A stretch of 64,000 bases of DNA from positions 1,623,001 to 1,687,000 of the forward strand of contig NZ_SLYP02000001.1 of the NCBI RefSeq assembly GCF_004341505.2, read 5' to 3'. The notes beneath the pieces are model-generated. The model saw only the letters and a list, made by a program, of their open reading frames with translations. It searched no databases and was not told the DNA's origin. Shown one piece after another: positions 6,831 through 46,258 of the stretch. This stretch comes from Sphingomonas sp. JUb134. Its GTDB lineage: Bacteria > Pseudomonadota > Alphaproteobacteria > Sphingomonadales > Sphingomonadaceae. Numbering within the stretch: position 1 is the first letter of the stretch; each line of letters starts with the position of its first letter. The position numbers were made by a program, and so were the translations under genes.

Positions 6831-6843
6831 CTCGGGGGCCATC

Positions 6844-30150: not shown

Positions 30151-30163
30151 ACGGCAGCCGCGC

Positions 30164-31073: not shown

Positions 31074-31104
31074 TTCCCGCGCTCGTTGGCGTTGAGGTGC
31101 AAGC

Positions 31105-31506: not shown

Positions 31507-31507
31507 G

Positions 31508-32404
31508 CTAGAGCAGCACCGCATCCTTCGGGAGGAGCGGCGGCGGCAGATCGGTCCGTCCCACGGCTGCCAGCAGTTCCCGCTCCACCGTGCGGACGAG
31601 GGCGTCCAGCGGCAGGTCGTTCGTCTCCTGCCCGAACGGGTCTTCCATCTCATCCCCCAGCGCATCGAGCCCGAAGAAGGTATAGCAGACCACCAGTACG
31701 ACTAGCGGCGTCCACCAGCCTAGCGATTGCGCCAGCGCGAAGGGCAGCAGCAGGCAAAAGGTATAGGCCGTGCGGTGAAGAAGCAGCGAATAGGCGTAGG
31801 GCAGGGGCGTCGCCTTGATGCGTTCGCATCCGGCCTGCACCTGAGCCAGGCCGGTCAGCGGTTGTTCCAGCACCGAGTAGCGGATGTCGCTGATGTGGCC
31901 GTCCTGCACGAGCCGGCTGCATGTGCGCCCCACCGACCGCAAGGCCGCATCGGTCGGGTTCGGCTGGTCTGCCCAGTCCTTCCCGTCAAACCAAGGGAGG
32001 ATCGCGGCCGCTTCGGGCTTGCCGCGAAGGCGCGCTGCCAGACCGTGGCTGAACCCCACGAGCCCCATCAGCAGCGGCGTTCGGATCTCCGGCGCAAGGT
32101 GCGCGGTCTGGCGGGCGAAGGTGCGAACTTCGATGATCAGCTGGCCCCAGAGCTTCCGACCTTCCCACCAGCGGTCGTAGCACGCGTTGTTGCGGAAGCT
32201 CATGAAGATCGAGAGCGCGAGGCCGATCAGGGTGAAGGGTATCGCGCCGAGCTGTGTGAGTATGGCTGGCGTGCGCGCGGCGAGCAGCACGGCGGCGCTG
32301 GCGATCAGCAGCATCGCCGCCAGGCGAGGGGCGATGCTGCCGATGATCGATCCGCGTACGCGAAACAGGATATCCCACAGCGTGGGTCGACGAAGGACGA
32401 TCAT
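31508..32404 (-). CDS. Bestrophin family chloride channel-like protein
   Basis: This 298-residue protein has the bestrophin (RFP-TM/UPF0187) layout: N-terminal RPTLWDILFRVRGSII, helices around FTLIGLALSIFMSFRNNACYDRWWEGRKLW (the SFRNNACYDRWWEGRK block is diagnostic), and the C-terminal GDEMEDPFGQETNDLPLDALV segment. It is expected to form a pentameric anion channel in the inner membrane. Its stop is 1 bp from the convergent MerC gene's stop. Confidence 0.92.
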   Translation of the reverse strand: MIVLRRPTLWDILFRVRGSIIGSIAPRLAAMLLIASAAVLLAARTPAILTQLGAIPFTLIGLALSIFMSFRNNACYDRWWEGRKLWGQLIIEVRTFARQTAHLAPEIRTPLLMGLVGFSHGLAARLRGKPEAAAILPWFDGKDWADQPNPTDAALRSVGRTCSRLVQDGHISDIRYSVLEQPLTGLAQVQAGCERIKATPLPYAYSLLLHRTAYTFCLLLPFALAQSLGWWTPLVVLVVCYTFFGLDALGDEMEDPFGQETNDLPLDALVRTVERELLAAVGRTDLPPPLLPKDAVLL

Positions 32405-32468
32405 GGGCGATCCTCAGGAACGTTCCCCGCCGGTTCCGCCATATGCTTGAGTCGGTGCAAGCCCCTCG

Positions 32469-33455
32469 TCAACGACCGTAGATGCGGTCGAGCACCTCGG
32501 CACTGCGCACCAGTTCTTCCGCATCCTCGGTGAAGCGGGGCGAGCGGGCCAGGCGCTCGGCCCAGTCCGCGCCGGCGCGACCGCCCCACGCGTCCGGTGC
32601 CTCTGCAAGCAGATGCCGTGTGGTGCCCTCGAATCGTTCGGCGCGGAAGTCGTAGAAGGAGCCGTTGAGGTTGCGCAGCGCCGCGGCGCCCGCGGTGCCG
32701 TAGAAGCTTGCGTCGATCACCGCGTCCTGGCCGGCGGGCAGGCGCCACGAGCAGGCGAGGCGTACCACCGTACCGCCCGCCAGCATCACGGTGGCGACGG
32801 CATAGTCCTCCACCTGGCGATCTGGATCGGCGAGGGGGTGGCCCCCGCTCGACAGGTGAGACGTGACCTCCCGCACTTCCGGGAAGCCGAGCGTCCAGAG
32901 CGCCAGGTCGACCAGGTGCACCCCCAGGTCCATCACGCAGCCGCCGCCCGACAGAGCAGGATCGTAGAACCACGGCTTGTCCGGGCCATAGGCGTTGTGA
33001 AAGGTGAGGTCGATCGCGTGGACATGGCCGAGCGCGCCGTCGCGCACCAGCGGCGCAATTTGCTGCATGCCGGCGGTGAACCGGTAGGAGAAGTCCACCG
33101 ACAGCAGCCGGTCGGCTCGCCGCGCGGCATCGACCACCGCGCGCGCCTCGGCGGCGCTGCGGCCGAGCGGCTTCTGGCAGAAGACGGCGCAGCCCGCCTC
33201 CAGTGCCTCGATCGACTGGCTGGCGTGAAGCGCGCTCGGGCTCGCGATCACCACGCCGTCGAGGCCGAGCGCCAGCATCGCGCCGAGCGAATCGACCACC
33301 GCTGCGTCGGGGGCGAGCTTCTGCGCCTCCGCCACCATCTCGGGCGAGGGATCGCTGATCGCCGCCGCCTCGACCGCGCCGGTGGCGAGCATCGCCTCCA
33401 TGCGGTGGCGGCCGATCCAGCCGACGCCCAGGAAGCCGAGCTTCGGGCGGGTCAT
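32469..33455 (-). CDS. Gfo/Idh/MocA family oxidoreductase
   Basis: This 328-residue protein has a Rossmann start (LGFLGVGWIGRHRMEAM), then VIASPSALHASQSIEALEAG and the EKP-like block FCQKPLGRSAAEA, in which the usual Glu is replaced by Gln in the EKP position. The C-terminal beta-sheet domain has HNAYGPDKPWFYDPALSGGG and DLGVHLVDLALW with the conserved His. It oxidises or reduces a sugar or cyclitol using NAD(P). It is last of the five leftward genes and overlaps the medium-chain dehydrogenase gene by 4 bp. Confidence 0.85.
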   Translation of the reverse strand: MTRPKLGFLGVGWIGRHRMEAMLATGAVEAAAISDPSPEMVAEAQKLAPDAAVVDSLGAMLALGLDGVVIASPSALHASQSIEALEAGCAVFCQKPLGRSAAEARAVVDAARRADRLLSVDFSYRFTAGMQQIAPLVRDGALGHVHAIDLTFHNAYGPDKPWFYDPALSGGGCVMDLGVHLVDLALWTLGFPEVREVTSHLSSGGHPLADPDRQVEDYAVATVMLAGGTVVRLACSWRLPAGQDAVIDASFYGTAGAAALRNLNGSFYDFRAERFEGTTRHLLAEAPDAWGGRAGADWAERLARSPRFTEDAEELVRSAEVLDRIYGR

Positions 33456-34435
33456 GCGGCGTCTCCGAACGTCACCAGCGCCTTCACGAAGCCGTCGGGC
33501 TTGTCGCGCGTGGCAAGCAGCGCCTCGTCCAGCCGGTCGAGCGGATAGCGGTGGGTATAAAGCGGCGTCGGGTCGAGCCGACCGGAGGCCACCGCCTCCG
33601 CGGCTTCCCGCAGTCCGCGCAGGTTCACCGCTGGGTCGCGCTCGTGTGCGCTGGCAATGTCGATGCCCTTCCAGTTCCACATCTGCATGTTGACCTGGCG
33701 CGGGCCGTCCTGGTGATAGCCCGCGATCACCAGCCGGCCGCCCTCGCGCACCAGCTCGCCCGCCAGATCGAGCGGCCATTGCTTGCCGACGCATTCGATC
33801 ACCCGGTCGCAGCCGCGCCCGTCGGTCAGCCGCTTCACATCCTCCAGGATGCGCCAATGGTCGTCCATGACGATCGTCTCGGCCGCGCCATAGTGACGGG
33901 CGAGATCGAGCGACGACTGGCGACGCGAGATCGCGATCACCCGCGCACCCGCCTCCGTCGCCAGCCGCGTCAGCACCGCGCCCAGGAAGCCGATGCCGAC
34001 GATCGCCACCGTCTGCCCCGCCTGCACGTCGGCGCGGCGGAAGATGTTGAACGCGCAGCCCAGCGGCTCGCCGGGGAAGGGCTTGCCGGCCAGCGCCTCC
34101 GGAAGCTTCACCAGCGCGTCGACGTCGGCGACGTCATATTCGGCGTAGCTCTTGCCCGACAGCATCGCCACGCGGTCCCCGATCGCGACGCCAGTCACAT
34201 CGGACCCGAGCGCATCGACCACGCCCCAGCCTTCATGCCCCATGCCGCCCGGTTCGCCGGGGAACTGCGACCAGGGCTGGCCTTCGAACGGCTCGACGTT
34301 GGAGGCGCAGACGCCGCAGCCTTCCAGCTTCACCCGCACCTGGCCTGGGCCAGGCTCGGGCAGGGCGACCTGCTGCAGTTCCATGGTGGCGGGCGCGGCG
34401 AGCACCGCCGCGCGCATCGTTTCGGTCATCGTCAT
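33452..34435 (-). CDS. Medium-chain zinc-type dehydrogenase, sugar-locus member
   Basis: This 327-residue protein has the GroES-like domain with GVCASNVEPFEGQPW and GHEGWGVVDALGSDV (Cys, His-Glu) and a Rossmann motif GIGFLGAVLTRLA. The four-cysteine structural zinc lobe is absent, the loop being short (VAMLSGKSYAEY). That resembles the branch of the family acting on sugars and cyclitols. The stop overlaps the Gfo/Idh gene start (ATGA). It lies 18 bp past the glycosidase-like gene's stop. Confidence 0.83.
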   Translation of the reverse strand: MTMTETMRAAVLAAPATMELQQVALPEPGPGQVRVKLEGCGVCASNVEPFEGQPWSQFPGEPGGMGHEGWGVVDALGSDVTGVAIGDRVAMLSGKSYAEYDVADVDALVKLPEALAGKPFPGEPLGCAFNIFRRADVQAGQTVAIVGIGFLGAVLTRLATEAGARVIAISRRQSSLDLARHYGAAETIVMDDHWRILEDVKRLTDGRGCDRVIECVGKQWPLDLAGELVREGGRLVIAGYHQDGPRQVNMQMWNWKGIDIASAHERDPAVNLRGLREAAEAVASGRLDPTPLYTHRYPLDRLDEALLATRDKPDGFVKALVTFGDAA

Positions 34436-34453
34436 TCCTGGTTGGACCTAGGA

Positions 34454-35389
34454 TCAGGCGCGCACTTCGAGCGCGGGCTCGGCCGCGGCCTGGACGCCGC
34501 CCGCCGGGGCATAGCGGTCGATCATCCATGCGCAGAAATCGGCGAACTGCTGCGGCTCGTACGGCGGGCTGGTGTGGTGCTTGCCCGGGCCCAGATGCTC
34601 GGGCGTGAAGCAGAAGGTGACGGTCACGTCGAAGTCGGCGATCGCCTCCATCTGCCGGTCGAACCAGTCGAGCGCATTGGGGCGGAAGCTGTCGGCCCAG
34701 CTCAGGCCTGTGCGCAGCTTCTTCGTACCGAGCCGCTTCATCCACGCGACCGCCTCGTCCAGGCGCGGGTCCTCATAATGGAACCACTGCATCAGGCCCA
34801 TGTCTGAGGCGACCTTGGCATAGTCGTCGAGCGCGGGCTTGGGGGTACCGTCCTCGCGGATCAGCCCCATGTAGAAATGGCGGTAGTAGCTCGACCCTTC
34901 CGCCTCGCGATGGCGGGTGGTGGCGCCCCAGCTCTGCGGCAGGTCGTAGAGCGAATACCAGAAGATGCGCGGCACGCGGCCGATCAGAAGCTCGGCAGTC
35001 CGGTTGACGCCGAACACCTGCACCTCTTCGGCGCCGAACGAGCCGACCCCGACCTCGGTCACCCAGATCGGCTTGTCCGTCACCGCTTCGATCTCGGCGA
35101 TCTTTTCAGGCCAGGCGTGGATCGGCCACAGGTTCCAGTCGAGCGGAAAGCCGTGCACCGCGACCGCATCGACGGCGTCGAGCACGCCGCGTGCCTCCAT
35201 CCGCTGCACCCAGGCCGGGTCGATCGGGGACATGCCGCCGAGCACGCGCGTGACTGCCGGATTGATCGCGTGGATCGCGTTGCCCGCCCGAACCATCGTG
35301 TCGGCGAAGATCGCCCACTCGGGATCGAGCTCGGGATCCCAGTGCGACTTGTTGTTCGGCTCGTTCCAGAGCATCGCGGCTTCGATCAC
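34454..35389 (-). CDS. Glycosidase-like TIM-barrel protein (cellulase/GH39 superfamily)
   Basis: This 311-residue protein has the acid/base motif LWNEPNNKSHW (Glu in WNEPN) and a later Glu in IWVTEVGVGSFG at the position expected for the nucleophile of clan GH-A. Between them is HGFPLDWNLWPIHAWPEKI. GTG at 35389 gives a GTGA overlap with the methyltransferase stop; ATG 35374 is an alternative. There is no signal peptide, so it would act in the cytoplasm, unusual for a polysaccharide-degrading enzyme. A family assignment needs a search. Confidence 0.75.
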   Translation of the reverse strand: MIEAAMLWNEPNNKSHWDPELDPEWAIFADTMVRAGNAIHAINPAVTRVLGGMSPIDPAWVQRMEARGVLDAVDAVAVHGFPLDWNLWPIHAWPEKIAEIEAVTDKPIWVTEVGVGSFGAEEVQVFGVNRTAELLIGRVPRIFWYSLYDLPQSWGATTRHREAEGSSYYRHFYMGLIREDGTPKPALDDYAKVASDMGLMQWFHYEDPRLDEAVAWMKRLGTKKLRTGLSWADSFRPNALDWFDRQMEAIADFDVTVTFCFTPEHLGPGKHHTSPPYEPQQFADFCAWMIDRYAPAGGVQAAAEPALEVRA

Positions 35390-36192
35390 TTGGCTTCCCC
35401 CTGTTCCGGCCCGCGGGCCGGGTAGACTGCCGCAGGGCCGTATTCCGCATAGGGAACCGGCGCCACGCGGCACAGATAGACGTCGCGTTCCGGGCGCGCC
35501 TCGACGGTGAAGCCCGAGGCGCGCAGCATCGCCTCCGACGCGGCATGGTTTGGCGCCCACCAGTTGGTCCAGTCGTGCGCATACTCGCGCTCGATGAAGT
35601 GCATCTTGGGATAGCCCGGATCGTCGAAATAGGCGGGCGCGTCATAGGTGCCCGGCACGTAGAAGGGGTGATCCTCCGGCACCTCGCACACCTCGTCGGA
35701 CCCGCGCTGCAGCGTCTGGAACAGCATCATGTCGCGGGCGACATGTTCGCGGATGAGGTCGAGTGCCAGCAGCGGATGACGCAGGTGGTAGAGCACGCCC
35801 ATGAAGATCACGAGGTCGAACTTCTCGCCCAGTGACGCGACGTCATAGACGGACAGCTTGGCGAACTCGACGCCGGTGAAGCCCAGCGCCTCGGTCGCGA
35901 GCCGTGCCTGCGCCAGGTAGCGTTCGTCGCTGTCGATGCCGAGCACCCGCGTGGCGCCGCGCCGCTTCATCTCCACCGAGTAGAAGCCGGCGTTGCAGCC
36001 GATGTCGAGCACGGTCTTGCCCGTCATGTCCTCCGGCAGGGCAGGGCCGAAGCGCTCGAACTTGAATCGGGGATAGTCGCCCAGGAAATGCTCGGGCGCG
36101 GTCTGGATGCCGTTCCCTAAGTCGATGTTGTGGAACCAGGGCGCGAGCCGCGCCACTTCCTCGCGGAGCCGATCGGTGGGCATCTTGGTCAT
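35386..36192 (-). CDS. SAM-dependent methyltransferase of the sugar locus
   Basis: This 268-residue class I methyltransferase has motif I VLDIGCNAGFYSVEM at about 52-66 and the post-I acid in GIDSDERYL, then YDVASLGEKFDLVIFMGVLYHLRHPLLAL. The N-terminal region (EVARLAPWFHNIDLGNGIQT) and the FERFGPALPEDMTGK lead-in are typical of a sugar-locus family that also includes TylF/WbqC-neighbourhood methyltransferases. It is coupled with the histidine phosphatase gene (4-bp ATGA overlap) and the glycosidase gene. Acceptor unknown, likely a sugar or carrier-linked glycan. Confidence 0.82.
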   Translation of the reverse strand: MTKMPTDRLREEVARLAPWFHNIDLGNGIQTAPEHFLGDYPRFKFERFGPALPEDMTGKTVLDIGCNAGFYSVEMKRRGATRVLGIDSDERYLAQARLATEALGFTGVEFAKLSVYDVASLGEKFDLVIFMGVLYHLRHPLLALDLIREHVARDMMLFQTLQRGSDEVCEVPEDHPFYVPGTYDAPAYFDDPGYPKMHFIEREYAHDWTNWWAPNHAASEAMLRASGFTVEARPERDVYLCRVAPVPYAEYGPAAVYPARGPEQGEAK

Positions 36193-36776
36193 TGCGGCAC
36201 CTCGTTGAGCGTGACGATGCGGCCCTGGCCTCCTGCCAGTGCCAGCGTGGTAAGCGAACCCGGCGCACAGTCGAACGCGAGCAACCGGTCGAGTCCGAGC
36301 CCAAGGACCTGCGCGGCCACGCCGCGGATGATGTCGCAGTGACTGACGCAGAGGATCATGCCGCCGTCGCCTTCGAGCGAGGCGATGTGCGCCGTCGCGC
36401 GCGTGACGGCCGCCGCCATGGTTTCCCCACCTGGGGTAGAGGCGGTCGCGCGCTCCGCGTTCCAGCGGTCCCAGTCCGGATCGCCATCAAGGCTGTCGAA
36501 GCTGCGGCCGGTCCAGGCGCCGAAGTCGACCTCGTCCAGCGCGTCCACCAGGGTCACGGGCAGGCCGTGGCGGGCGGCGACGATCTCCGCGGTCTCCCGC
36601 GTGCGGCGGCGGGGGCTGGCGTGGATCGCGCGGAGCGGCGCGGAGGCGAGGCGCTCGGCAAGGCGCTCGGCTTCTGCGCGGCCCGCGGCGTTGAGCGCGA
36701 TCTCCGACCGGCCGCTCAGAACCGCGCCGACCTCATCATGGCTTCCGTGACGCGCAAGAAGGACGGTCGCGCTCAA
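36189..36776 (-). CDS. Histidine phosphatase (phosphoglycerate mutase-like)
   Basis: This protein of about 195 residues has the phosphatase signature LLARHGSHDEV (RHG) and the second catalytic His in CVSHCDIIRGV. ASPRRRTRETAEIV is the third family block. No ATG or GTG gives a sensible start; TTG at 36776 is the best choice, so the start is uncertain. It is the first leftward gene of the sugar locus. It may dephosphorylate a sugar phosphate, as in the alpha-ribazole or GmhB-like role, which is inference. Confidence 0.75.
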   Translation of the reverse strand: MSATVLLARHGSHDEVGAVLSGRSEIALNAAGRAEAERLAERLASAPLRAIHASPRRRTRETAEIVAARHGLPVTLVDALDEVDFGAWTGRSFDSLDGDPDWDRWNAERATASTPGGETMAAAVTRATAHIASLEGDGGMILCVSHCDIIRGVAAQVLGLGLDRLLAFDCAPGSLTTLALAGGQGRIVTLNEVPQ

Positions 36777-36848
36777 TGCGCGCCCGTAGAAGGCAGGATC
36801 AACATAGATGCTGCAATCGCATCGCGTCCCCCTTTGGTTCCCCGCTCC

Positions 36849-36914
36849 GGGAAAAATGTTTCCCGCCCGGAATGATTTTCGGGAACAAAGATGAAGAAGA
36901 AGCGCTTCTTCTTC
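36849..36914. promoter_or_regulatory. Two palindromes in the divergent control region
   Basis: GGGAAA-AATG-TTTCCC lies at 36849-36864. A 22-bp perfect palindrome GAAGAAGAAGCGCTTCTTCTTC is at 36893-36914. They sit in the 228-bp gap between the leftward and rightward operons of the sugar locus, so they probably control one or both. The second palindrome is also part of a short frame from 36891 that reads MKKKRFFFRVASH and stop. Confidence 0.5.
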
Positions 36915-37004
36915 CGGGTCGCAAGCCATTGAACAGGCTTGGGACGGTCAAGTCAACGCAGGCACGGCTGGGGGATGCAGTCGGTGTCGAGAGCGGGAGG
37001 AAGA

Positions 37005-38117
37005 ATGGAACGAGTTCTCATCACCGGGGGGGCGGGATTCATTGGACGCTTCGTCGCCGACGAACTTCTGGCACGCGGCAACGAAGTGCGGGTCCTCGAT
37101 AGCCTGATCGAGCAGGTCCATGGCGCGACCGACGGCTCGCAGATGCTCAACAAGGAAGCCGAGCTGATCCGCGCCGACGTGCGCGACAAGGATGCGGTGC
37201 TGAAGGCGCTCGACGGCGTCGACAGCGTCATCCACCTGGCGGCCGAAGTCGGCGTCGGCCAGTCGATGTACGAGGTCGAGCGCTATACCTCGACCAACGA
37301 CGTCGGCACCGCGGTGCTGTTCGAGGCGCTGATCGACAAGCCGGTCCGCCGCGTCGTCACCGCCTCCTCCATGAGCATCTATGGCGAGGGCCTCTACCGC
37401 GACGCCGATGGCGCGCTAGTTGAGAACGCCGAGCGCAAGACGCTGAAGGACGGCCAGAAGAATTGGGAGCCCACCGACGCGCAGGGCCGCCCGCTCAGCC
37501 CGGTCGCGACCCCGGAGTGGAAGCGCCCGAACCTGGCGTCGATCTACGCGCTCAACAAATATGTGCAGGAACGCACGACCCACATCATGGCCGAGCCCTA
37601 TGGCATTGAGGGTGTGTGCCTGCGTCTGTTCAACGTCTATGGCCCCGGCCAGGCGCTGTCGAACCCCTACACCGGCGTGCTCGCGATCTTTGCGTCACGC
37701 TTCCTCAATGGTCAGTCGCCCCTGATCTTCGAGGACGGTGAGCAGCGCCGCGACTTCGTTCATGTCAGCGACGTGGCACGCGCCTTTGCCGACGCCCTCT
37801 TGCTGCCGCAGGCAGTCGGCGGCACGTTCAACATCGGCTCGGGCAACCATCGGTCGGTCAAGGAAGTGGCCGAGGAACTCGCCAAGGCGATGGGCAAGAA
37901 CGACCTGACCGCGGAAGTGGTGGGCAAGGCGCGCATCGGCGATATTCGCCACTGCTTCTGCGACACGACGCTGGCGGCCGAGAAGCTCGACTTCCGCGCG
38001 AAGCAGGACTTCCAGCAGGGCCTGGCCGAGCTCGCGGAGTGGGTGGCGCAGCAGACCGCGCAGGACCGCGTCGAGCAGATGCGCTCCGAATTGGAAAAGC
38101 GGGGCCTGGTGGCATGA
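37005..38117 (+). CDS. NAD-dependent sugar epimerase (rhamnose 4-epimerase-like)
   Basis: This 370-residue extended SDR starts MERVLITGGAGFIGRFVADE with the Rossmann GGAGFIG and has the catalytic Tyr-Lys in YALNK. A region with QVHGATDG and the long insertion EGLYRDADGALVENAERKTL resembles dTDP-L-rhamnose 4-epimerases of actinobacteria. The ATG at 37005 has a GGAGGAAGA site. First of seven rightward genes; its stop overlaps the next start (ATGA). Confidence 0.85.
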   Translation: MERVLITGGAGFIGRFVADELLARGNEVRVLDSLIEQVHGATDGSQMLNKEAELIRADVRDKDAVLKALDGVDSVIHLAAEVGVGQSMYEVERYTSTNDVGTAVLFEALIDKPVRRVVTASSMSIYGEGLYRDADGALVENAERKTLKDGQKNWEPTDAQGRPLSPVATPEWKRPNLASIYALNKYVQERTTHIMAEPYGIEGVCLRLFNVYGPGQALSNPYTGVLAIFASRFLNGQSPLIFEDGEQRRDFVHVSDVARAFADALLLPQAVGGTFNIGSGNHRSVKEVAEELAKAMGKNDLTAEVVGKARIGDIRHCFCDTTLAAEKLDFRAKQDFQQGLAELAEWVAQQTAQDRVEQMRSELEKRGLVA

Positions 38118-39214
38118 CCGGGCAGGAGAGCGCCGCGGCGGACCCGCGGCCGATCCTGGTCACCGGCGGTGCGGGCTTCATCGGATCCAACCTCGCCGAC
38201 CGGCTGGCCGGCGAGGGGCACCGCGTGCTCGTCTATGACGCGCTATCGCGAGCGGGGGTCGACACCAACCTCGCCTGGCTGCAGCAGCGGCATGGCGACC
38301 GCATCGACTTCCTGCACGCCGACATTCGCGACGAGGCTCGGCTGGCGGATGCCGCGGCCGGTGCCAAGGCGGTGTTCCACTTGGCCGCACAGGTGGCGGT
38401 GACCACCAGCATGGTCGATCCGCGCGACGATTTTGCGATCAACATCGCCGGCACGCTCAACCTGCTCGACGCGATTCGCACGCGCTCGCCCGAGACGCCG
38501 GTGATCTTTGCATCCACCAACAAGGTGTACGGCGACCTGATCGACCTCGACTTCGTGCTGGAGGATCAGGCCTATCGTCCCGTGGACGCGGAAGTGCGCG
38601 CGCACGGCATCGGCGAGGCGCGGCCGCTCGACTTCCACACGCCGTACGGCTGCTCCAAGGGCGCGGCCGACCAATATGTGCTCGACTACGCCCGCAGCTT
38701 CGGCCTGAAGACCGCGGTGCTGCGGATGAGCTGCATCTATGGTCAGCGCCAGATGGGCACCGAGGACCAGGGATGGGTCGCCCATTTCCTGATCCGCGCG
38801 CTCGAGGGCAAGCCGATCACGCTCTACGGCGACGGTCATCAGGTTCGCGACATCCTCGACGTGTCGGACGCGGTCGACGCCTATGTCGCGGCATGGCGCA
38901 ACATCGACGCCGTCGCGGGCCAGGCGTTCAACCTGGGTGGGGGCCCGGACAACGCCATCAGCCTGCGCCAGCTGCTGGCCTATATCGGCGAAGTGCTCGG
39001 CCGCGAGGTCGACCTGAGCTTCTCCGACTGGCGCGCGGGCGACCAGCGCTATTTTGTCGCGGACACGCGCAAGGCGCAGGCGGCGCTGGGCCTCGGCAAG
39101 CGCATCGACTGGCACGACGGCGTCGCGCGGCTAGCCCGCTGGCTGGCGGAGGCGCGCGGCATCAACGCGCCCATCGGCGTCCCGGCGGCGGATGCGCCGG
39201 CAGGGGCTGCTTGA
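38114..39214 (+). CDS. NAD-dependent sugar epimerase (CDP-paratose 2-epimerase-like)
   Basis: This 366-residue extended SDR has GGAGFIGSNLAD, the RVLVYDALSRAGVDTNLAWL region, STNKVYGD and the YGCSKGAADQYVLDY active-site helix (Tyr-Lys). The pattern DFHTPYGCSKGAADQY and YGQRQMGTEDQGWVAHF is close to CDP-paratose 2-epimerases (Tyv/RfbE). The substrate class, a deoxysugar nucleotide, is inferred. It is coupled to its neighbours by overlaps (ATGA, TGATG). Confidence 0.82.
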   Translation: MTGQESAAADPRPILVTGGAGFIGSNLADRLAGEGHRVLVYDALSRAGVDTNLAWLQQRHGDRIDFLHADIRDEARLADAAAGAKAVFHLAAQVAVTTSMVDPRDDFAINIAGTLNLLDAIRTRSPETPVIFASTNKVYGDLIDLDFVLEDQAYRPVDAEVRAHGIGEARPLDFHTPYGCSKGAADQYVLDYARSFGLKTAVLRMSCIYGQRQMGTEDQGWVAHFLIRALEGKPITLYGDGHQVRDILDVSDAVDAYVAAWRNIDAVAGQAFNLGGGPDNAISLRQLLAYIGEVLGREVDLSFSDWRAGDQRYFVADTRKAQAALGLGKRIDWHDGVARLARWLAEARGINAPIGVPAADAPAGAA

Positions 39215-40317
39215 TGGCGGCGCGGATCCTGATCACCGCCGATGCCGTGGGCGGGGTCTGGCAATATGCAACCGACCTCGCCTGTGCGCTCGCTCCCCTC
39301 GGCTTCGCGCCGACGGTAGCGGTGCTCGGGCCGGAGCCGAATGCCGCGCAGCGCGCGCCGGTCGAGGCGGCGGGCATTCCGATCCTGGAGACCGGCCTGC
39401 CGCTCGACTGGCTGTGTGACGGCCCCGTGCCGGTGCGCGAGGCCGGCGAGGCACTGGCGAAGCTGGTGCGCGAGCAGGGGTTCGACCTCGTCCACTGCAA
39501 CATGCCGACGCTGGCGGCGAGCGGCGCGTTCGGCGTGCCGGTGGTCGCGGTGGCGCACGGCTGCCTCGCCACCTGGTGGGACGCCGCCAATGGCACCAAG
39601 CTGCCGCCGGACTATCGCTGGCAGCGCACGCTGACCGAACAGGGTTTTCGCGCGGCCAGCCGTGTCGTGGCGCCGACCGCAGCGTTCGCCGCGGTGATCC
39701 AGCGCACCTATGGCCTCGCCGACCTGCCGCTCGCCGTCCACAACGGCCGCCGGCCGCTGTGTGTGGGCGAGGGCGCGCCCACCGACTGCGTCTTCACCGC
39801 CGGCCGGCTGTGGGACCAGGTCAAGCAGACGCGTCTGCTCGACCGCGTGGCCACCCGGCTGCCGGTGCCGTTCCACGCGGCCGGCGCGCTGGTGGGGCCG
39901 CATGGCGAGCAGGTGCCCGCCGACCATCTCCAGCCGCTCGGGCTGTTGAGCGAGGCGGAACTGGCCGAGTGGCTCGTCCAGCGCCCGATCTTCGTCTCGG
40001 CCGCGCGGTTCGAGCCGTTCGGGCTGGCGGTGCTGGAGGCGGCGGCTGCCGGCTGTCCGCTGGTGCTCGCCGACCTGCCGACCTTCCGTGAGCTGTGGGA
40101 CGGCGCGGCCGTCTTCGTGGCGCCACAGGACGAAGGCGGCTTCGTCGCCGCGATCGAGGCGGTCCGCGCCGATCCCGCGCGCCGCCTTGCGCTGGGCGAG
40201 GCCGCGCAGGCGCGCGCGGGCCGCTACACGCCGGCGGCAGTCGCGCGCGACATGGCCGCACTCTACCGCGACCTGCTCGATCCCGCCGCAACCCTCACGC
40301 GGAGTGCCGCGGCATGA
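39214..40317 (+). CDS. Glycosyltransferase, GT4-like (GT-B fold)
   Basis: This 367-residue protein has the GT-B N-terminal lobe (MAARILITADAVGGVWQYATDLACAL) and a C-terminal donor-binding lobe with LVQRPIFVSAARFEPFGLAVLEAAAAGCPLVLADL and a catalytic EPFGLAVLEA block (the E-x7-E pattern of GT4). AHGCLATWWDAANG may be an acceptor loop. The ATG overlaps the epimerase stop. It presumably transfers a sugar from the locus to an unknown acceptor. Confidence 0.84.
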   Translation: MAARILITADAVGGVWQYATDLACALAPLGFAPTVAVLGPEPNAAQRAPVEAAGIPILETGLPLDWLCDGPVPVREAGEALAKLVREQGFDLVHCNMPTLAASGAFGVPVVAVAHGCLATWWDAANGTKLPPDYRWQRTLTEQGFRAASRVVAPTAAFAAVIQRTYGLADLPLAVHNGRRPLCVGEGAPTDCVFTAGRLWDQVKQTRLLDRVATRLPVPFHAAGALVGPHGEQVPADHLQPLGLLSEAELAEWLVQRPIFVSAARFEPFGLAVLEAAAAGCPLVLADLPTFRELWDGAAVFVAPQDEGGFVAAIEAVRADPARRLALGEAAQARAGRYTPAAVARDMAALYRDLLDPAATLTRSAAA

Positions 40318-41426
40318 AGATCGCCTATTTCACCCATTCGCTGCTGTCGTGCTGGAACCACGGCAACGCCCATTTCCTGCGCGGCGTGCTGCGCGAGCTG
40401 ATCGCGCGCGGTCACGATGTCCGCACGCTGGAACCGGAAGGCAATTGGAGTCTCGCAAACCTGCTCGCCGACGGTGGCGAGGCGGGGCTGGAGCCCTATC
40501 GCACCGCCTATCCGGAGCTGTCGTCGCAGAGCTTTGCGCCCGGCACCGATCCGGTCGAGCTGGTCGACGATGCCGAGCTGGTGATCGTCCACGAGTGGAA
40601 CGACCCTGCGCTCGTCGCCGCCATCGGCGACCTGCGCAAGCGCGGCGGCCGCTTCACCCTCTTGTTCCACGACACCCACCACCGCGCCGTGAGCGATCCC
40701 GACGCGATCCGCGCCTTCGATCTCTCCGGCTATGACGGCGTGCTCGCGTTCGGTGAGACGCTGTCGGAGGTCTATCGCCGCTGGGGCTGGGAAGGACGCG
40801 TCTGGACCTGGCACGAGGCCGCGGACACCCGCCACTTCCACCCGCCCGTGCACGAAGGCACGCGCGAGGGGCTGGTGTGGATCGGCAACTGGGGCGACGG
40901 CGAGCGGACGCAGGAGCTGGAGGACTTCCTCTTCCGCCCGGCCAATGCCGCGGGCCTGCCGCTCGACATCTACGGCGTGCGCTACCCGGACGAGGCCAAG
41001 GCGATGCTTGCCTCGCACGGCGCGCGCTATCGCGGCTGGGCACCTAATGCCAAGGCGCCGGAAATCTTCGCCCGCCACCTCGCCACCGTGCACGTGCCGC
41101 GTCGTTACTACGCGACGATCCTGCCCGGCATCCCCACCATCCGCGTGTTCGAGGCGCTCGCCTGCGGGCTGCCTTTGGTGTCGGCGCCGTGGGAGGATGC
41201 CGAGGGGCTGTTCCGCCCCGGCACCGACTATCTCGTCGCCCGCGACGGCGCCGAGATGACCCGCCACCTGACGGCGTTGCGCGACGATCCCGACCTGCGC
41301 GCGAGCCTCGCCGCCGCCGGGCTGGAGACGATCCGCGCCCGGCACACCTGCGCCCACCGCGTCGACGAGCTGCTCGCCGTCGTCGCGACCCTCGGCGCCC
41401 CGCAAGTTGAGAGGAACGTGGCGTGA
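40314..41426 (+). CDS. CgeB-like glycosyltransferase, tandem copy 1
   Basis: This 370-residue protein resembles CgeB, a spore-coat glycosyltransferase of Bacillus, through its N-terminal IAYFTHSLLSCWNHGNAHFLRGVLREL, the FTLLFHDTHHRAVSDP block and the C-terminal PTIRVFEALACGLPLVSAPWEDAEGLFRPGTDYL. The Asp-Thr-His at the strand end aligns with DVD in copy 2 and DID in copy 3. No signal or membrane segment is visible. It starts with ATGA overlap and ends with GTGA overlap. Confidence 0.82.
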   Translation: MKIAYFTHSLLSCWNHGNAHFLRGVLRELIARGHDVRTLEPEGNWSLANLLADGGEAGLEPYRTAYPELSSQSFAPGTDPVELVDDAELVIVHEWNDPALVAAIGDLRKRGGRFTLLFHDTHHRAVSDPDAIRAFDLSGYDGVLAFGETLSEVYRRWGWEGRVWTWHEAADTRHFHPPVHEGTREGLVWIGNWGDGERTQELEDFLFRPANAAGLPLDIYGVRYPDEAKAMLASHGARYRGWAPNAKAPEIFARHLATVHVPRRYYATILPGIPTIRVFEALACGLPLVSAPWEDAEGLFRPGTDYLVARDGAEMTRHLTALRDDPDLRASLAAAGLETIRARHTCAHRVDELLAVVATLGAPQVERNVA

Positions 41427-42511
41427 AGATCGCCTTCTACGGATCCAGCCTCGTGTCGTCCTATTGGAACGGTGCGGCCACCTATTATCGCGGCATCCTG
41501 CGCGACCTGGCGCAGCGCGGCTACCAGATCAGCTTCTACGAGCCCGACGCCTTCGACCGGCAGAAGCATCGCGACATCGACGCACCCGATTGGGCACGCT
41601 CGGTGGTCTACCCGGCGACCGAAGAGGCGATGCGCGGCGTCCTTGCCGAAGCGGCCGACGCCGACATCGTCGTCAAGGCGAACGGCGTCGGCGTGTTCGA
41701 TCGCGAGCTGCTGGAGGGCATCGTCGAGCATGCCGCGCCGCAGGCGCTCAAGATCTTCTGGGACGTCGACGCGGCTGCCACGCTCGACGAGATGCGCGCC
41801 GACGCGGACCATCCTGTGCGCCGCGCGCTGCCGGACCTCGATGCGGTGTTCACCTATGGCGGCGGCCCGCCGGTTGTGAACGCGTACAAGGGCTTCGGCG
41901 CCGCCGACTGCGTGCCGGTCTACAATGCGCTCGACCCGACGACCCATTTTCCGGTCGAGCCCGACCCCCGCTTCGCCTGCGATCTCGCGTTCCTCGGCAA
42001 CCGCCTTCCGGACCGTGAAGCGCGCGTGGAGGAGTTCTTCCTCAAGGCCGCCGCGCGCTTGCCGGAGCAGCAATTCCTGATCGGCGGCAACGGCTGGGAG
42101 ACCAAGGCGATGCCCGGCAACGTCCGCCACCGCGGCCACGTCTACACGGCCGAGCACAACGCCTTCAACTGCACGCCACGCGCGGTGCTGAACGTGGCGC
42201 GCGACAGCATGGCCAACGTCGGCTTCTCGCCCGCGACCCGCGTCTTTGAAGCGGCGGGCGCTGCCGCCTGCCTCATCACCGACGCCTGGGAAGGCATCGA
42301 GCAGTTCCTGATCCCCAACGAGGAAGTGCTGGTCGCGCGTGACGGCCAGGACGTGGCCGACCATCTCGCGGCGCTTACGCCAGAACGCGCGCAGGCGATC
42401 GGCCAAGCGGCGCTCAAGCGCGTGCTCGCCGAGCACACCTACACGCTGCGCGGCGCGCAGGTGGACCAGCTGTTCCAAGCGCATGCCGAGCGGCAGCGGG
42501 AAGTCGCATGA
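41423..42511 (+). CDS. CgeB-like glycosyltransferase, tandem copy 2
   Basis: This 362-residue paralogue has KIAFYGSSLVSSYWNGAATYYRGILRDLA at the N-terminus, LKIFWDVDAAATLDEM (copy 1 FHDTHH position), an insert KGFGAADCVPVYNALDPTTHF, and the C-terminal block SPATRVFEAAGAAACLITDAWEGIEQFL. It starts with GTG in a GTGA overlap. Predicted as an inverting or retaining sugar transferase with a different acceptor or donor from copy 1. Confidence 0.82.
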   Translation: MKIAFYGSSLVSSYWNGAATYYRGILRDLAQRGYQISFYEPDAFDRQKHRDIDAPDWARSVVYPATEEAMRGVLAEAADADIVVKANGVGVFDRELLEGIVEHAAPQALKIFWDVDAAATLDEMRADADHPVRRALPDLDAVFTYGGGPPVVNAYKGFGAADCVPVYNALDPTTHFPVEPDPRFACDLAFLGNRLPDREARVEEFFLKAAARLPEQQFLIGGNGWETKAMPGNVRHRGHVYTAEHNAFNCTPRAVLNVARDSMANVGFSPATRVFEAAGAAACLITDAWEGIEQFLIPNEEVLVARDGQDVADHLAALTPERAQAIGQAALKRVLAEHTYTLRGAQVDQLFQAHAERQREVA

Positions 42512-43593
42512 AGCTCGTCGTCCTCGGCCTCTCGCTGTCGTCCTCGTGGGGCAACGGCCATGCCACCACCTTCCGCGCGCTGCTCAAGGCTTACGCCGCG
42601 CGCGGTCACGACATCCTGTTCCTGGAGCGGGACGTGCCCTGGTATGCGTCGCATCGCGACCACGTCGATCCCGACTATTGCCGGCTGAAATTCTACGCCG
42701 ATCTGGACGGGCTGGACGCCTGGCGCGAGGAGATCGCGGGCGCCGATGCGGTGATCGTCGGCTCCTATGTGCCGGAGGGCGTAGCGGTCGCCCGCTATGT
42801 CCAGCAGGTCGCTGAGGGCGTCACCGCCTTCTACGACATCGACACGCCGGTGACGCTCGCGAAGCTCGAACGCGGCGACTTCGAATATCTCTCGCCGGAG
42901 GTCATCCCCGGCTACGACCTCTACCTGTCGTTCACCGGCGGGCCGACGCTGGAGCGGCTCGAGCGCACCTATGGATCGCCGGCGGCGCGTGCCTTCTACT
43001 GCTCGGTCGACCCGGCGCTCTACGCGCCGACCGGCACGGAGAAGCGCTGGGACCTCTCCTACCTCGGCACCTACAGCGACGATCGCCAGCCCACTCTGGA
43101 GCGGCTGCTGATCGAGCCGGCGCGCGCGCTGCCGCACCGCCGGTTCGTGGTGGCGGGGCCGCAATATCCCGACACCATCGACTGGCCGGCGAACGTCGAG
43201 CGGATCGATCACCTGCCGCCGTCCGAGCACGCCGACTTCTACTCGGCGTCGCGCTTCACCCTCAACGTGACGCGCGCGGACATGATCGCGGCGGGCTGGT
43301 CGCCGTCGGTGCGCCTGTTCGAGGCGGGCGCGTGCGGAACCCCGATCGTGTCGGATCGCTGGGAGGGGATCGAAGACCTGTTCGCACCCGGCCGCGAGAT
43401 CCTGCTGGCGGATGATGGCGCCGCCGTGATCGCCGCGATCGAAGGGGCGGATGCCGCGGCAATGGGGGAGGCGGCACGCGCCCGCGTGCTGGACGCCCAC
43501 ACCGCTGCGCACCGCGCCGCAGAATTGGAACTGCACCTCACCGAAGCGGCAGCACGACAGGTGCCGCAGTCTGCTTTGGCAGGAGCCGCCTGA
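42508..43593 (+). CDS. CgeB-like glycosyltransferase, tandem copy 3
   Basis: This 361-residue paralogue has KLVVLGLSLSSSWGNGHATTFRALLKAY, VTAFYDIDTPVTLAKL, SYLGTYSDDRQPTLERLLIEPA and the donor block SPSVRLFEAGACGTPIVSDRWEGIEDLFAPGREIL. It is closer to copy 2 in the central block. ATGA overlap joins it to copy 2 and TGATG to the next gene. Probably the third transferase in a chain of additions. Confidence 0.82.
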   Translation: MKLVVLGLSLSSSWGNGHATTFRALLKAYAARGHDILFLERDVPWYASHRDHVDPDYCRLKFYADLDGLDAWREEIAGADAVIVGSYVPEGVAVARYVQQVAEGVTAFYDIDTPVTLAKLERGDFEYLSPEVIPGYDLYLSFTGGPTLERLERTYGSPAARAFYCSVDPALYAPTGTEKRWDLSYLGTYSDDRQPTLERLLIEPARALPHRRFVVAGPQYPDTIDWPANVERIDHLPPSEHADFYSASRFTLNVTRADMIAAGWSPSVRLFEAGACGTPIVSDRWEGIEDLFAPGREILLADDGAAVIAAIEGADAAAMGEAARARVLDAHTAAHRAAELELHLTEAAARQVPQSALAGAA

Positions 43594-44645
43594 TGAACGA
43601 CATAAGGGACAAGAAGGAGCGGAACATGGCGCAGAACGAAGCTGGAGTGGCGCTGGTCGCGGGCGGAGCGGGCTTTATCGGCTCGCACCTCTGCCGGGCG
43701 CTGGTGGATCAGGGCTATGAGGTGCTGTGCCTCGATAACCTCCAGACGGCGCGTCCGTCCAACCTGCGGCTGCTGGAGGCGCTGCCCAACTTCACCTTCG
43801 TGGAGGCGGACATCGTCAACCCGCTGCCCCAGGCGGTGCTGGAGCGGGCCGATCGCATCACGCGCATCTACAATCTCGCCTGCGCAGCCTCGCCGCCGCA
43901 GTACCAGGCCGATCCCGAGCACACGATGCTCACCAACGTGGTCGGCACCAACCACCTGCTGCGGCTGGCCGAAAAGACCGGCGCGCGCTTCCTGCTCACC
44001 TCCACCAGCGAGGTCTATGGCGATCCGGAAGTCCACCCGCAGGCGGAAGGTTATCGCGGCTGGGTGAGCTGCACCGGCCCGCGCGCCTGCTATGACGAGG
44101 GCAAGCGCGCTGCCGAGGCGCTGACCTTCGACTATGCCCGCATGAACCGCGCGGAAGTGCGCGTGGCCCGCATCTTCAACACCTATGGCCCGCAGATGCA
44201 TCCGGATGACGGCCGCGTCGTCTCCAACCTGATCTGCCAGGCGCTGTCCGGCCGCGACATCACCGTCTATGGCGACGGCAGCCAGACGCGCAGCTTCTGC
44301 TACGTCTCCGACATGGTCGATGCGCTGATGCGGCTGATGGAAAGCGACATCAATCCGATGGAGCCGGTCAACCTCGGCAATCCGACCGAGTTCACCGTCA
44401 ACGAGCTGCTGGAAAAGGTGCTGGTCGCGACCGGTGTCGAGGGCCGGGTGACCTACAACCCGCTGCCGCAGGACGATCCGCGGCGCCGCCGTCCCGACAT
44501 CAGCCGTGCCAAGGCGGTGCTCGGCTGGGAGCCGACCGTGCCGCTGGAGGATGGGCTCGCCCGCACCAGCGCCTGGTTCGCGGAAGAACTGGGAGTCGAG
44601 TTGGCCCGGCCGGAGATCCAGGAGCCGCTGCGCGCCCGCGCCTGA
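43593..44645 (+). CDS. UDP-glucuronate decarboxylase-like nucleotide-sugar enzyme
   Basis: This 350-residue extended SDR has the NAD motif AGGAGFIGSHL and the signature PRACYDEGKRAAEAL with the catalytic Tyr-Lys, which matches UDP-xylose synthase (UXS) and related decarboxylases (PRxCYDEGKR). ARIFNTYGPQMHPDDGRVVSNLI and RSFCYVSDMVDALMRLM follow. It could supply UDP-xylose to the transferases. ATG 43593 overlaps the preceding stop; ATG 43626 has a stronger AAGGAGCGG site and may be the true start. Confidence 0.85.
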   Translation: MNDIRDKKERNMAQNEAGVALVAGGAGFIGSHLCRALVDQGYEVLCLDNLQTARPSNLRLLEALPNFTFVEADIVNPLPQAVLERADRITRIYNLACAASPPQYQADPEHTMLTNVVGTNHLLRLAEKTGARFLLTSTSEVYGDPEVHPQAEGYRGWVSCTGPRACYDEGKRAAEALTFDYARMNRAEVRVARIFNTYGPQMHPDDGRVVSNLICQALSGRDITVYGDGSQTRSFCYVSDMVDALMRLMESDINPMEPVNLGNPTEFTVNELLEKVLVATGVEGRVTYNPLPQDDPRRRRPDISRAKAVLGWEPTVPLEDGLARTSAWFAEELGVELARPEIQEPLRARA

Positions 44646-44666
44646 TCGAACTCCTAGAAACGTCGT

Positions 44667-44700
44667 GCCCCGCTCCGGCAGCCGCCGGGGCGGGGCGTTT
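44667..44700 (+). terminator. Terminator of the rightward sugar operon
   Basis: A 13-bp GC-rich stem (44667-44679 with 44684-44696, one G-T pair, 4-nt loop) is followed by GTTTCAT. It lies 22 bp past the UXS-like stop and fits an intrinsic terminator. Confidence 0.75.
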
Positions 44701-44765
44701 CATATCGGGACGCCCAGCGCCACCGACGAAGGTGCAAAGCGTAAACGGCGTGTTAACCTGTTCCT

Positions 44766-44942
44766 ATGGACCAACGACACGCGCACTCGCCTGTGGCCGT
44801 TTCCGGCCCACCGCATCCCTTTCGCCGTGCTCTGGCGGATGCTCGCAAGGCATCGAAGGACGCCAGCAGCGAAGAGGATCTGAAGCTCTTCGTCCTGAGC
44901 TTCACCGCCTTCTTCGTCTGCTTCTACACCTTCCTGTTATAG
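44766..44942 (+). CDS. Small single-helix membrane protein (58 residues)
   Basis: ATG at 44766 opens a 59-codon frame ending TAG at 44942. The first half is hydrophilic and Pro/His rich (MDQRHAHSPVAVSGPPHPF), then ADARKASKDASSEEDLKLF, then an aromatic membrane helix (FVLSFTAFFVCFYTFLL) that ends the protein. The organisation is typical of small tail-anchored proteins. No family recognised. It lies between the sugar operon terminator and the convergent MFS gene. Confidence 0.55.
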   Translation: MDQRHAHSPVAVSGPPHPFRRALADARKASKDASSEEDLKLFVLSFTAFFVCFYTFLL

Positions 44943-44968
44943 CCGCGCTTGCGGCTTGACCCGGCGGT

Positions 44969-46258
44969 TCAGTCGCATGCGCAGTGCAGCTTCCAGGCCA
45001 ACCAGGCGGAGAGCACGCACATGCCGGCGACCACCAGCAGCATGTCCTCCGGCGTCACTCCGGCCGCGCTGACGGCGCTCACCACGATCGCGCCGATCGT
45101 CATCGCGCCTGCGTTGACGATGTTGTTGGCCGCCACCGTCCGCGCCGTCTGGTCCTTGGTCACCGTGGTGGTCAGGAAGGCGTAGAGCGGCACCACGAAC
45201 ATGCCGCCGGTGACTGCGACGGCAAGCATCGTCAGCAGCAACCCGACCGCGCGCGGCAGCGTGATAAAGTCGTAGAAGCCATACAATGTGCCGGCCGGCG
45301 CCTGCACCCAGCCGCGCGCCTCCAGCGACAGCGCGATCACGGCGACGCCCATCGCGATCACCGAGCCCGGCGCATATTTCGCCGAGACCTTGCCGCGCAG
45401 CAGCGCGTTGATGACCACCGAACCGATCGCCACCCCGACCGAGAAGATCGCGATGGTGAGGCTGGCGACCCGCTCGTTGGCGGTGAGCACGTTCTTCACC
45501 AGCGGCGGGAAGATCACGATCATCACCGACGCGATGGTCCAGAAGAAGCTGATGGCGAGGATCGCCAGGAACAGCCGCCGGATGTGCATCGTCGCCGCGA
45601 CCAGCTTCCACGAGGAGGTGATCGGGTTGTAGTTGAGCTTCAGTTCGGCACCCAGCCGGGGGGCCGCGGGCACCATGCGGCCCGTGATCCAGCCGATCAC
45701 CGCAACCCCGATCACCAGGATCGCCGAAGCCTCGACGGAGATCCATCCTGCGATCACCGTTCCCAGCAGGATCGAGAGATAGGTGCCGGCTTCCACCAGC
45801 CCGGTGCCGCCCAGCACCTCATCCTCTTTCAGATGCTGCGGCAGGATCGCGTATTTGATCGGCCCGAAGAAGGTCGAGTGGGTGCCCAGCAGCAGCACGG
45901 CGCCCAGCATCATCGCGAGGCCGAGGTTGATCCACCCGGCCTGCGCCACGAACACGCCCGCCGCGCCGAAGATCATGATTCCGATCTCGGCCGTCTTCAC
46001 GATGCGGATGATCCGTGCCTTGTCGCTCGTGTCCGCGAGCTGGCCGGACAGCGCCGAGAGGACGAAGAAGGGGATGATCCCGATCGCCGTCGCCAAGGCG
46101 TTGAAATTCTGTTCTGCCTGCGCGTCCGAGAAGATCTGGTAGGTCGCGAACAGAACGATCGCCTGCTTGAACAGGTTGTCGTTGAAGGCACCCAGAAACT
46201 GCGTGACGAACAGGGGAAGGAAGCGGCGCTTCCTGAGCAGCCCGAGCGCATTCAGCAT
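44969..46258 (-). CDS. MFS transporter, LplT-like
   Basis: This 429-residue protein has about 12 predicted helices. The N-terminus FLPLFVTQFLGAFNDNLFKQAIVL is the LplT/lysophospholipid-transporter signature (QFLGAFNDNLFK). LGTHSTFFGPIKYAILPQHL is the second. It likely flips lysophospholipids inward at the inner membrane for reacylation. There is no fused acyltransferase domain here. It is divergent from pgsA, 131 bp apart, a fitting lipid neighbour. Confidence 0.88.
   Translation of the reverse strand: MLNALGLLRKRRFLPLFVTQFLGAFNDNLFKQAIVLFATYQIFSDAQAEQNFNALATAIGIIPFFVLSALSGQLADTSDKARIIRIVKTAEIGIMIFGAAGVFVAQAGWINLGLAMMLGAVLLLGTHSTFFGPIKYAILPQHLKEDEVLGGTGLVEAGTYLSILLGTVIAGWISVEASAILVIGVAVIGWITGRMVPAAPRLGAELKLNYNPITSSWKLVAATMHIRRLFLAILAISFFWTIASVMIVIFPPLVKNVLTANERVASLTIAIFSVGVAIGSVVINALLRGKVSAKYAPGSVIAMGVAVIALSLEARGWVQAPAGTLYGFYDFITLPRAVGLLLTMLAVAVTGGMFVVPLYAFLTTTVTKDQTARTVAANNIVNAGAMTIGAIVVSAVSAAGVTPEDMLLVVAGMCVLSAWLAWKLHCACD

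Follow-up and report, generated by a model that had tools for sequence, protein, structure and literature searches.

Two described pathways come closest to the gene cassette analysed here, a 12-gene divergent sugar locus at 32469..44645 of a 64,000-nucleotide stretch of Sphingomonas sp. JUb134 DNA (contig NZ_SLYP02000001.1, positions 1,623,001 to 1,687,000; hereafter, the window). The first is the mycobacterial methylmannose polysaccharide (MMP) cluster, which PMC9883506 describes as a scattered cluster of four genes, with methyltransferases, a glycan hydrolase and a glycosyltransferase (GT), that its authors tie to cold adaptation. Methyltransferase, hydrolase and GT genes are likewise found together in the cassette, and the top structural match of the model of its transferase CgeB2 is the MMP enzyme ManT, a likeness of fold only. 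The MMP cluster differs in its four genes and its GDP-mannose donor, and it includes neither an inositol synthase nor nucleotide-sugar enzymes (PMC9883506). The second pathway is mycothiol biosynthesis (Ino1 and MshA-D), which has in common with the cassette family a myo-inositol-1-phosphate synthase (MIPS), a retaining GT-B enzyme and, in two of the related loci compared below, a PIG-L gene. The cassette nevertheless carries several extra sugar and methyl genes, and the thiol-forming enzymes (the MshC cysteine ligase and the MshD acetyltransferase) are not among its 12 genes.

Since NCBI curators had modelled two of its families as hypothetical equivalogs, TIGR04290 and TIGR04295 (B12_rSAM_oligo), the cassette had not gone wholly unnoticed. 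The window methyltransferase is a member of TIGR04290 (meth_Rta_06860), a model whose name carries no function; unlike some of its relatives, the window cassette lacks both a TIGR04295-type gene and an in-locus MIPS. The name "rhizo-twelve," which denotes this family set, was not met in a literature search. That search also found no paper describing the cassette, a weak negative given that the Sinorhizobium meliloti locus tags used were guesses: the guessed SMb tags were not found in PMC3596328, PMC10315480 or PMC2848241, and elsewhere only SMb20231, an ABC-transporter binding-protein gene, was encountered. In S. meliloti 1021, a cassette on pSymB (NC_003078.1, 242-258 kb) matches all 12 window genes and adds genes for MIPS, a pyruvyl transferase, FrhB and DUF1003. 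Unlike in the window cassette, the methyltransferase there closes the GT arm, MIPS is in the locus and the stress promoters are consensus-like. What the present analysis adds is the link to inositol, the stress promoter and the permuted enzyme.

We read the cassette as a conserved two-arm unit that would make a methylated, inositol-based oligosaccharide in the cytoplasm and that, in many carriers, would be induced by the general stress response (sigma-EcfG/RpoE2). The product is putative, and we give this reading a probability of roughly 0.45. Its features, in open reading frame (ORF) coordinates of the window, are listed below; start codons were picked by eye, with alternatives at 43626 for UXS and at 36776 or 36929 for the phosphatase.

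32469..33455, minus strand: Gfo/Idh/MocA oxidoreductase (Gfo; PF01408, PF22725), in 51 of 80 related loci
33452..34435, minus strand: medium-chain (zinc-type) dehydrogenase (MDR; PF00107, PF08240), in 48 of 80 loci
34436..34453, no strand: 18-bp gap at the GH/MDR junction, with an inositol-3-phosphate synthase gene at the equivalent spot in 25 of 80 loci
34454..35389, minus strand: circularly permuted glycosidase-like (beta/alpha)8 protein (GH), GTG start, invariant E10 (WNEPN) and E112, Glyco_hydro_cc-like
35386..36192, minus strand: TIGR04290-family methyltransferase (MT; 364.5 bits, cut-off 300), with CmoB and EvdMO1 as relatives in the PDB
36189..36776, minus strand: histidine phosphatase, branch 1 (PF00300), start possibly 36929
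36837..36841, minus strand: GGAAC, -35-like, reading into the left arm, -10 not consensus
36882..36886, plus strand: GGAAC, -35-like, 123 bp before EPI1; many relatives have the full sigma-EcfG-type motif here, its own -10 is not consensus
37005..38117, plus strand: EPI1, GalE-like short-chain dehydrogenase/reductase (SDR) epimerase (PF01370), with UDP-glucose 4-epimerases among its PDB neighbours
38114..39214, plus strand: EPI2, SDR epimerase, nearest solved relative CDP-tyvelose 2-epimerase
39214..40317, plus strand: GT4-type glycosyltransferase (PF13439, PF13692)
40314..41426, plus strand: CgeB-type glycosyltransferase 1 (CgeB1; PF13524, 2.7e-38)
41423..42511, plus strand: CgeB-type glycosyltransferase 2 (CgeB2; PF13524, 5.1e-39), GT-B model with a pLDDT of 83.6
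42508..43593, plus strand: CgeB-type glycosyltransferase 3 (CgeB3; PF13524, 1.8e-41)
43593..44645, plus strand: UXS, UDP-glucuronate decarboxylase (UDP-xylose synthase)-like (PDB UXS1, E 2.2e-99)

The left arm thus runs from Gfo through MDR, GH and MT to the phosphatase, and the right arm from EPI1 through EPI2, GT4 and CgeB1-3 to UXS. An earlier note, made from the letters of the window, had described this divergent 12-gene locus, named its gene classes and remarked that nearly every junction is a 4-bp or 1-bp overlap. All 12 genes were recovered, family searches back each class, and 9 of the 10 same-strand junctions overlap: by 4 bp at Gfo/MDR, GH/MT, MT/phosphatase, EPI1/EPI2, GT4/CgeB1, CgeB1/CgeB2 and CgeB2/CgeB3, and by 1 bp at EPI2/GT4 and CgeB3/UXS, the sole exception being GH/MDR.

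A scan with the methyltransferase alignment confirmed at least 540 relatives, the best 80 loci of which are the basis of every count out of 80; a further 20 loci, which partly repeat these, stand outside those counts. The hosts of the best 80 include Sphingomonas, Sphingobium, Novosphingobium, Porphyrobacter, Croceibacterium, Stakelama, Sphingosinicella, Paracoccus, Rubellimicrobium, Methylobacterium, Lichenibacterium, others and metagenome-assembled genomes (MAGs). Besides Gfo and MDR (counts above), these loci carry GH in 76 cases, the phosphatase in 60, EPI2 in 59, GT4 in 57, EPI1 and CgeB1 in 56 each, CgeB2 and CgeB3 in 54 each, UXS in 43 and MIPS in 42, part of the misses being due to contig ends and the 10-kb flank. 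MT, GH, EPI1, EPI2, GT4 and CgeB1-3 occur together in 49. The gene order, which the earlier note had proposed to seek in other genomes, thus recurs in tens of loci, which supports one functional unit and rules out a chance or local assemblage. Because our ORF caller for neighbouring genes was crude, with antisense ORFs posing as families, family counts derived from it were not used.

TIGR04290 scored above its cut-off in 14 of 398 genomes drawn evenly from the phylum, all of them in the window's class, and in 29 of 150 related genomes; CgeB2 (E 1e-60 or better) was present in the identical 29. In seven of these the two genes are separated by ~32 to 252 kb or sit on different contigs (one other genome was too fragmented to judge), so proximity alone does not explain the shared distribution: both arms are one unit. 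The phosphatase adjoins EPI1 in all seven separate GT arms and therefore belongs with that arm; in one of the seven (G072), GH, MDR and Gfo are there as well. Sphingomonas desiccabilis and Sphingomonas sp. PL-96 have methyltransferases that share 97-98% identity with that of the window. A methyltransferase homologue is found in 133 plasmid records (tblastn, E 1e-30), including 66 from Sinorhizobium and 35 from Rhizobium. Since CgeB2 of Paracoccus (82-84% identical) is nearer to that of the window than are those of several Sphingomonas (only 72-74%), horizontal transfer is suggested, and the cassette is probably mobile. One of the MAGs among the 80 loci, labelled Granulicella, has on a contig assigned to Acidobacteriota a TIGR04290-type gene accompanied by genes for a CgeB and a nucleotidyltransferase, through either transfer or a binning error.

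The cassettes also vary in their extra genes: GT9-like (34 of 80 loci), DUF1003 (26), FrhB-like (19) and pyruvyl transferase (18), and more rarely TIGR04295-type B12 radical SAM (5), a nucleotidyltransferase with a fourth CgeB (5) and PIG-L (2). The TIGR04295-type gene is annotated in the cassettes of Azospirillum and Bradyrhizobium, the latter of which also holds a phosphopentomutase gene. Given this variation, the cassettes probably make several related glycans that share a core. We also observed, in 7 of the 80 loci and in S. meliloti, a protein of ~570-720 aa that has no Pfam match and a phosphoribosyltransferase-like motif by eye (L168:2632-4788, L136:6886-8721, L139:11736-13436).

The earlier note had left the acceptor of the sugars open, and the recurrence of MIPS points to inositol. 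This extra gene (PF01658; best NCBIfam model TIGR03450 mycothiol_INO1, at 447 of 638 bits and hence below the cut-off) lies between GH and MDR in 25 of its 42 loci, after GH with no MDR beyond in 11 and elsewhere in 6, and it is found in the cassettes of Azospirillum, Roseomonas, Bradyrhizobium, Paracoccus, S. medicae and S. meliloti. Counted anywhere in the genome, PF01658 is present in all 29 carriers but in just 33 of the 62 other congeners covered by that search (Fisher 1.3e-6, kinship ignored). The host's own MIPS gene lies on the same contig at 3.394 Mb, beside genes for an inositol-1-phosphate cytidylyltransferase-like protein and a CDP-alcohol phosphatidyltransferase.

This inositol-lipid operon raises the question of whether the acceptor is instead an inositol phospholipid, the cassette decorating phosphatidylinositol or inositol-phosphoceramide to give a glycolipid akin to mycobacterial phosphatidylinositol mannosides or eukaryotic glycosylinositol phosphoceramides. 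The CDP-alcohol transferase is matched in 26 of the 29 carriers (10 strongly, 16 at 26-31% identity), and GT4 gives weak matches to PimA. Three carriers (G003, G041 and G054), however, have no match to it at E 1e-10, although another CDP-alcohol transferase could substitute there, and the cassette holds no multi-helix protein; we consider a lipid acceptor unlikely. Since two of these three, G041 and G054, have the in-locus MIPS as their only copy, the factor common to carriers appears to be the supply of inositol phosphate, and the simplest account of these gene distributions is that the cassette needs inositol phosphate rather than inositol lipid. Two side observations concern these genes. 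The first 101 residues of the host CDP-alcohol transferase (C1:3394796-3395668) also have a 100% match at the contig start (C1:1-303), which suggests an assembly overlap or a contig-end duplication. In G003, a group at ~1720-10669 of locus L166, comprising a GT, a sugar-isomerase-like and a second inositol-phosphate-synthase-like gene, lies near MIPS and within ~20 kb of the cassette; by eye it resembles an ebo-type cluster.

Stress control was assessed with the motif GGAAC-N15-18-[CGT]GTT, based on GGAAC-N16/17-GTT, the sigma-EcfG/RpoE2 consensus; it was sought within 350 bp upstream, and the gene plus 200 bp of upstream sequence had to be present. Of 56 loci, 31 have the motif ahead of EPI1, and in 25 of those it lies 95-123 bp from the point where the match begins; for the phosphatase the figure is 21 of 58 loci, and for MT it is 29 of 80. 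Before the other cassette genes it was found once each for MDR, CgeB3 and UXS and never for EPI2, GT4, CgeB1, CgeB2, GH, Gfo or MIPS. Control counts were 6 of 463 for other ORFs of the same loci and, for reversed upstream sequences, 1 of 56 (EPI1), 2 of 58 (phosphatase) and 3 of 80 (MT); these figures supersede a count of 47 of 79 for which the motif was less strict and the control was a simple shuffle. In S. meliloti 1021, the motif stands 64-73 bp before the match starts of MIPS, EPI1 and the pyruvyl transferase, and in strain ABS7 it stands 77 bp before the annotated DUF1003 gene. The Sphingomonas host encodes NepR, with GGAAC-N16-GGTT upstream. Just past the plus-strand GGAAC element of the window, a palindrome, GAAGAAGAAGCGCTTCTTCTTC, occupies 36893-36914 in place of the promoter spacer and -10.

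The reading that the product is made in the cytoplasm draws in part on the lack of export machinery in the cassette, to which the earlier note had pointed. Hydropathy and inspection by eye bear out its statement that the 12 genes encode no exporter, signal peptide or membrane helix: the top 19-residue hydropathy value among the 12 proteins is 1.83, inside Gfo/Idh, and no N-terminal signal-like segment was seen by eye. The search was extended to the 56 of 80 loci with at least eight cassette genes, using hydropathy rather than family models (the helix counter gives 6 and 9 for the Pit and major facilitator superfamily [MFS] proteins of the window) and skipping ORFs that overlap known cassette or neighbour genes, including the two-helix DUF1003. 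No non-cassette ORF with four or more predicted helices lies inside any of the 56 loci, and one with six or more lies within 4 kb in 3, a test that reached 4 kb on the Gfo side in 48 of 56 and on the GT side in none. We therefore added 27 regions from relatives, 20 beyond the GT arm and 7 around separate GT arms; 3 have an ORF of at least six helices within 4 kb of the arm, these ORFs being unrelated-looking by eye and not recurrent (two in one region appear EamA-type and FeoB-type). The multi-helix flippase, polymerase or ABC permease that marks a Wzx/Wzy or ABC-dependent polysaccharide locus is thus missing from these loci, and the prospect raised in the earlier note, that homologous loci might always carry such an exporter, did not materialize. 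The annotated flanks of plasmid cassettes name no polysaccharide exporter; a TRAP transporter lies nearby in P. yeei and ABC sugar-transporter genes lie nearby in S. meliloti. The MFS gene at 44969-46258 of the window was considered as an exporter and rejected: among the loci compared, only the two nearest species retain it, and it is weakly LplT-like.

These data also bear on the possibility that the product is a secreted or surface polysaccharide or oligosaccharide whose exporter is encoded elsewhere. The pyruvyl transferase and FrhB-like neighbours, both also present in S. meliloti, would fit such a glycan, and an osmotic-upshift microarray study of S. meliloti reportedly found an induced surface-polysaccharide cluster on pSymB. 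Given the lack of multi-helix ORFs within the 56 loci and their sporadic occurrence beside the 27 GT-arm regions, this possibility seems improbable to us. The proposal that the glycan is made inside the cell rather than as a capsule or O-antigen is partly supported, in that the genes form one unit and the homologous loci hold no exporters, and "inside the cell" is the favoured reading.

CgeB1-3 score 131.6, 134.0 and 141.9 bits with PF13524 (gathering score, 25) and, being only 27-32% identical pairwise, represent different enzymes. A sequence search of the PDB at E 1 gave no relative for CgeB2. Its model adopts a GT-B fold whose top match, ManT, is the MMP mannosyltransferase (7qsg, E 6.2e-12, TM 0.72), followed by BshA and MshA as near ties; the model is thus nearest to soluble GTs that act on small acceptors, and such matches indicate fold, not function. 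The solved relatives of the methyltransferase include CmoB tRNA enzymes and EvdMO1, which presumably acts on an everninomicin sugar. In PDB searches, EPI2 matched CDP-tyvelose 2-epimerase at E 4.6e-87 and 2.4e-80 (next entry, 1.6e-39), and the next family after UXS1 for UXS was at 1.2e-41, so that by its closest solved relatives, which are UXS enzymes and not other SDRs, UXS is a predicted UDP-glucuronate decarboxylase.

The proximity of the CgeB2 fold to MshA and BshA could also recall a mycothiol-type cofactor or thiol, in which glucosaminyl-inositol would bear further sugars. In-locus MIPS also matches mycothiol_INO1 best, albeit below the cut-off and as the lipid-operon MIPS does likewise, and PIG-L deacetylase accompanies a second GT4 in 2 of 80 loci. 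That frequency is low, four sugar transferases look excessive, and neither a cysteine ligase nor an acetyltransferase is among the 12 genes, so we give this option very little credence. Glycosylation of a protein, such as flagellin or a coat-like protein, could be argued from the three CgeB-type transferases, CgeB being named after a spore-coat gene. No recurrent target protein was noticed among the neighbours in our crude ORF calls, however, and the conserved partner is inositol-3-phosphate synthase, which makes a protein target highly improbable.

The glycosidase-like protein is unusual in architecture. Its sequence begins at the WNEPN motif, which usually comes after strand beta4. When 35 homologues were made into a profile, it aligned with PslG as two swapped pieces, residues 200-295 with PslG 25-130 and residues 3-154 with PslG 132-302; the whole-sequence E value was 1.5e-6, the first piece (200-295) alone was not significant, and PDB rows weaker than E 0.001 were excluded. 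The predicted structure (pLDDT 87.8, pTM 0.87) has eight barrel strands in the order beta4-8 and then beta1-3, unlike the canonical beta1 to beta8 order of clan GH-A (PslG/GH39-like), with which it has in common the barrel and both catalytic glutamates. E10, the acid/base after beta4, and E112, the nucleophile at beta7, are invariant in 35 of 35 aligned homologues. Stronger evidence comes from Rhizobium sp. NLR16a plasmid p6 (L172:6479-8521), where an unpermuted glycosidase-like domain is fused N-terminal to EPI2 in a 680-aa protein: GH residues 7-184 match residues 124-299 of the fusion (33%, E 3e-26), and residues 198-293 match residues 18-115 (31%, E 3e-11). From sequence and model, then, GH is a circularly permuted (beta/alpha)8 barrel with both catalytic glutamates.

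Of 152 plasmid records that match the fusion, 50, including R. etli CFN 42, span 80% or more of its length. The permuted form occurs in 97 plasmid records, only 5 of them Rhizobium, compared with 35 Rhizobium records that have the methyltransferase, which suggests that the fusion stands in for permuted GH in Rhizobium. The fusion also ties the glycosidase to the EPI2 sugar. The permuted family has at least 8000 homologues, often given the conjectural name "beta-xylosidase" in databases; Foldseek and VIA-align searches with the barrel returned generic barrels only, a result that is not evidence that relatives are absent.

Gene content, conservation, the joint occurrence of the two arms, that of MIPS with the cassette, the permutation and the promoter motifs of relatives come directly from the computation; from them we infer a set of reactions, together with their order, the acceptor, the cellular location and a protective role. 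Inositol phosphate would come from inositol-3-phosphate synthase, whether its gene lies inside the cassette or outside it, and GT4 and the three CgeB-type GT-B enzymes would add sugars to it, one of them xylose from the UXS product and the rest shaped by EPI1 and EPI2. The phosphate would be taken off by the histidine phosphatase, MDR and Gfo/Idh could oxidize and then re-reduce a ring carbon, and the TIGR04290 enzyme would O-methylate the product. The permuted glycosidase-like enzyme may trim, remodel or recycle the chain.

Several observations weigh against this scheme. MIPS lies solely outside the cassette in 24 of the 29 carriers and is present in the 33 non-carrier congeners noted above, so the MIPS-cassette link could stem partly from shared ancestry or habitat, and none of MIPS, the phosphatase and permuted GH lies within 14 kb in the cassette of Rhizobium sp. 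NLR16a. In the window promoter, GGAAC is retained on both strands but no -10 fits the consensus, so EcfG control of this copy is only conjectural. The motif is also common across the host genome, where its count of 87 barely exceeds the 69 of a backwards control, and in S. meliloti neither the Gfo-MDR unit nor the f14 gene has it nearby. The fold likeness of CgeB2 extends to the whole superfamily, and the pyruvyl transferase and FrhB-like neighbours hint at a surface glycan in some hosts.

Outside the cassette lie genes for Pit, an SGNH hydrolase, a MerC-like, a bestrophin-like and an MFS protein (some named by eye). Because these flanking genes are common only to the two nearest species among 100 loci compared, the cassette borders are placed at 32469 and 44645. 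The SGNH hydrolase beside the Sphingomonas desiccabilis cassette matches in three pieces and is possibly frameshifted. No RNA element reached its gathering score in 30000-47000.

The general stress response helps Alphaproteobacteria to survive heat, osmotic and oxidative stress. It is possible, albeit doubtful, that the cassette specifies a new class of stress protectant, namely a cytoplasmic, inositol-primed, O-methylated hetero-oligosaccharide that would be made under the general stress response in several alphaproteobacterial orders, including by S. meliloti, and remodelled by a new family of permuted glycoside hydrolases. Many targets of this response have no assigned function; in S. meliloti, this is so for 150 of the 202 genes induced by RpoE2 overexpression, for which none is predicted (PMC3616915). 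A dozen linked genes behind such promoters on pSymB of this tractable model would make one target of the general stress response directly testable.

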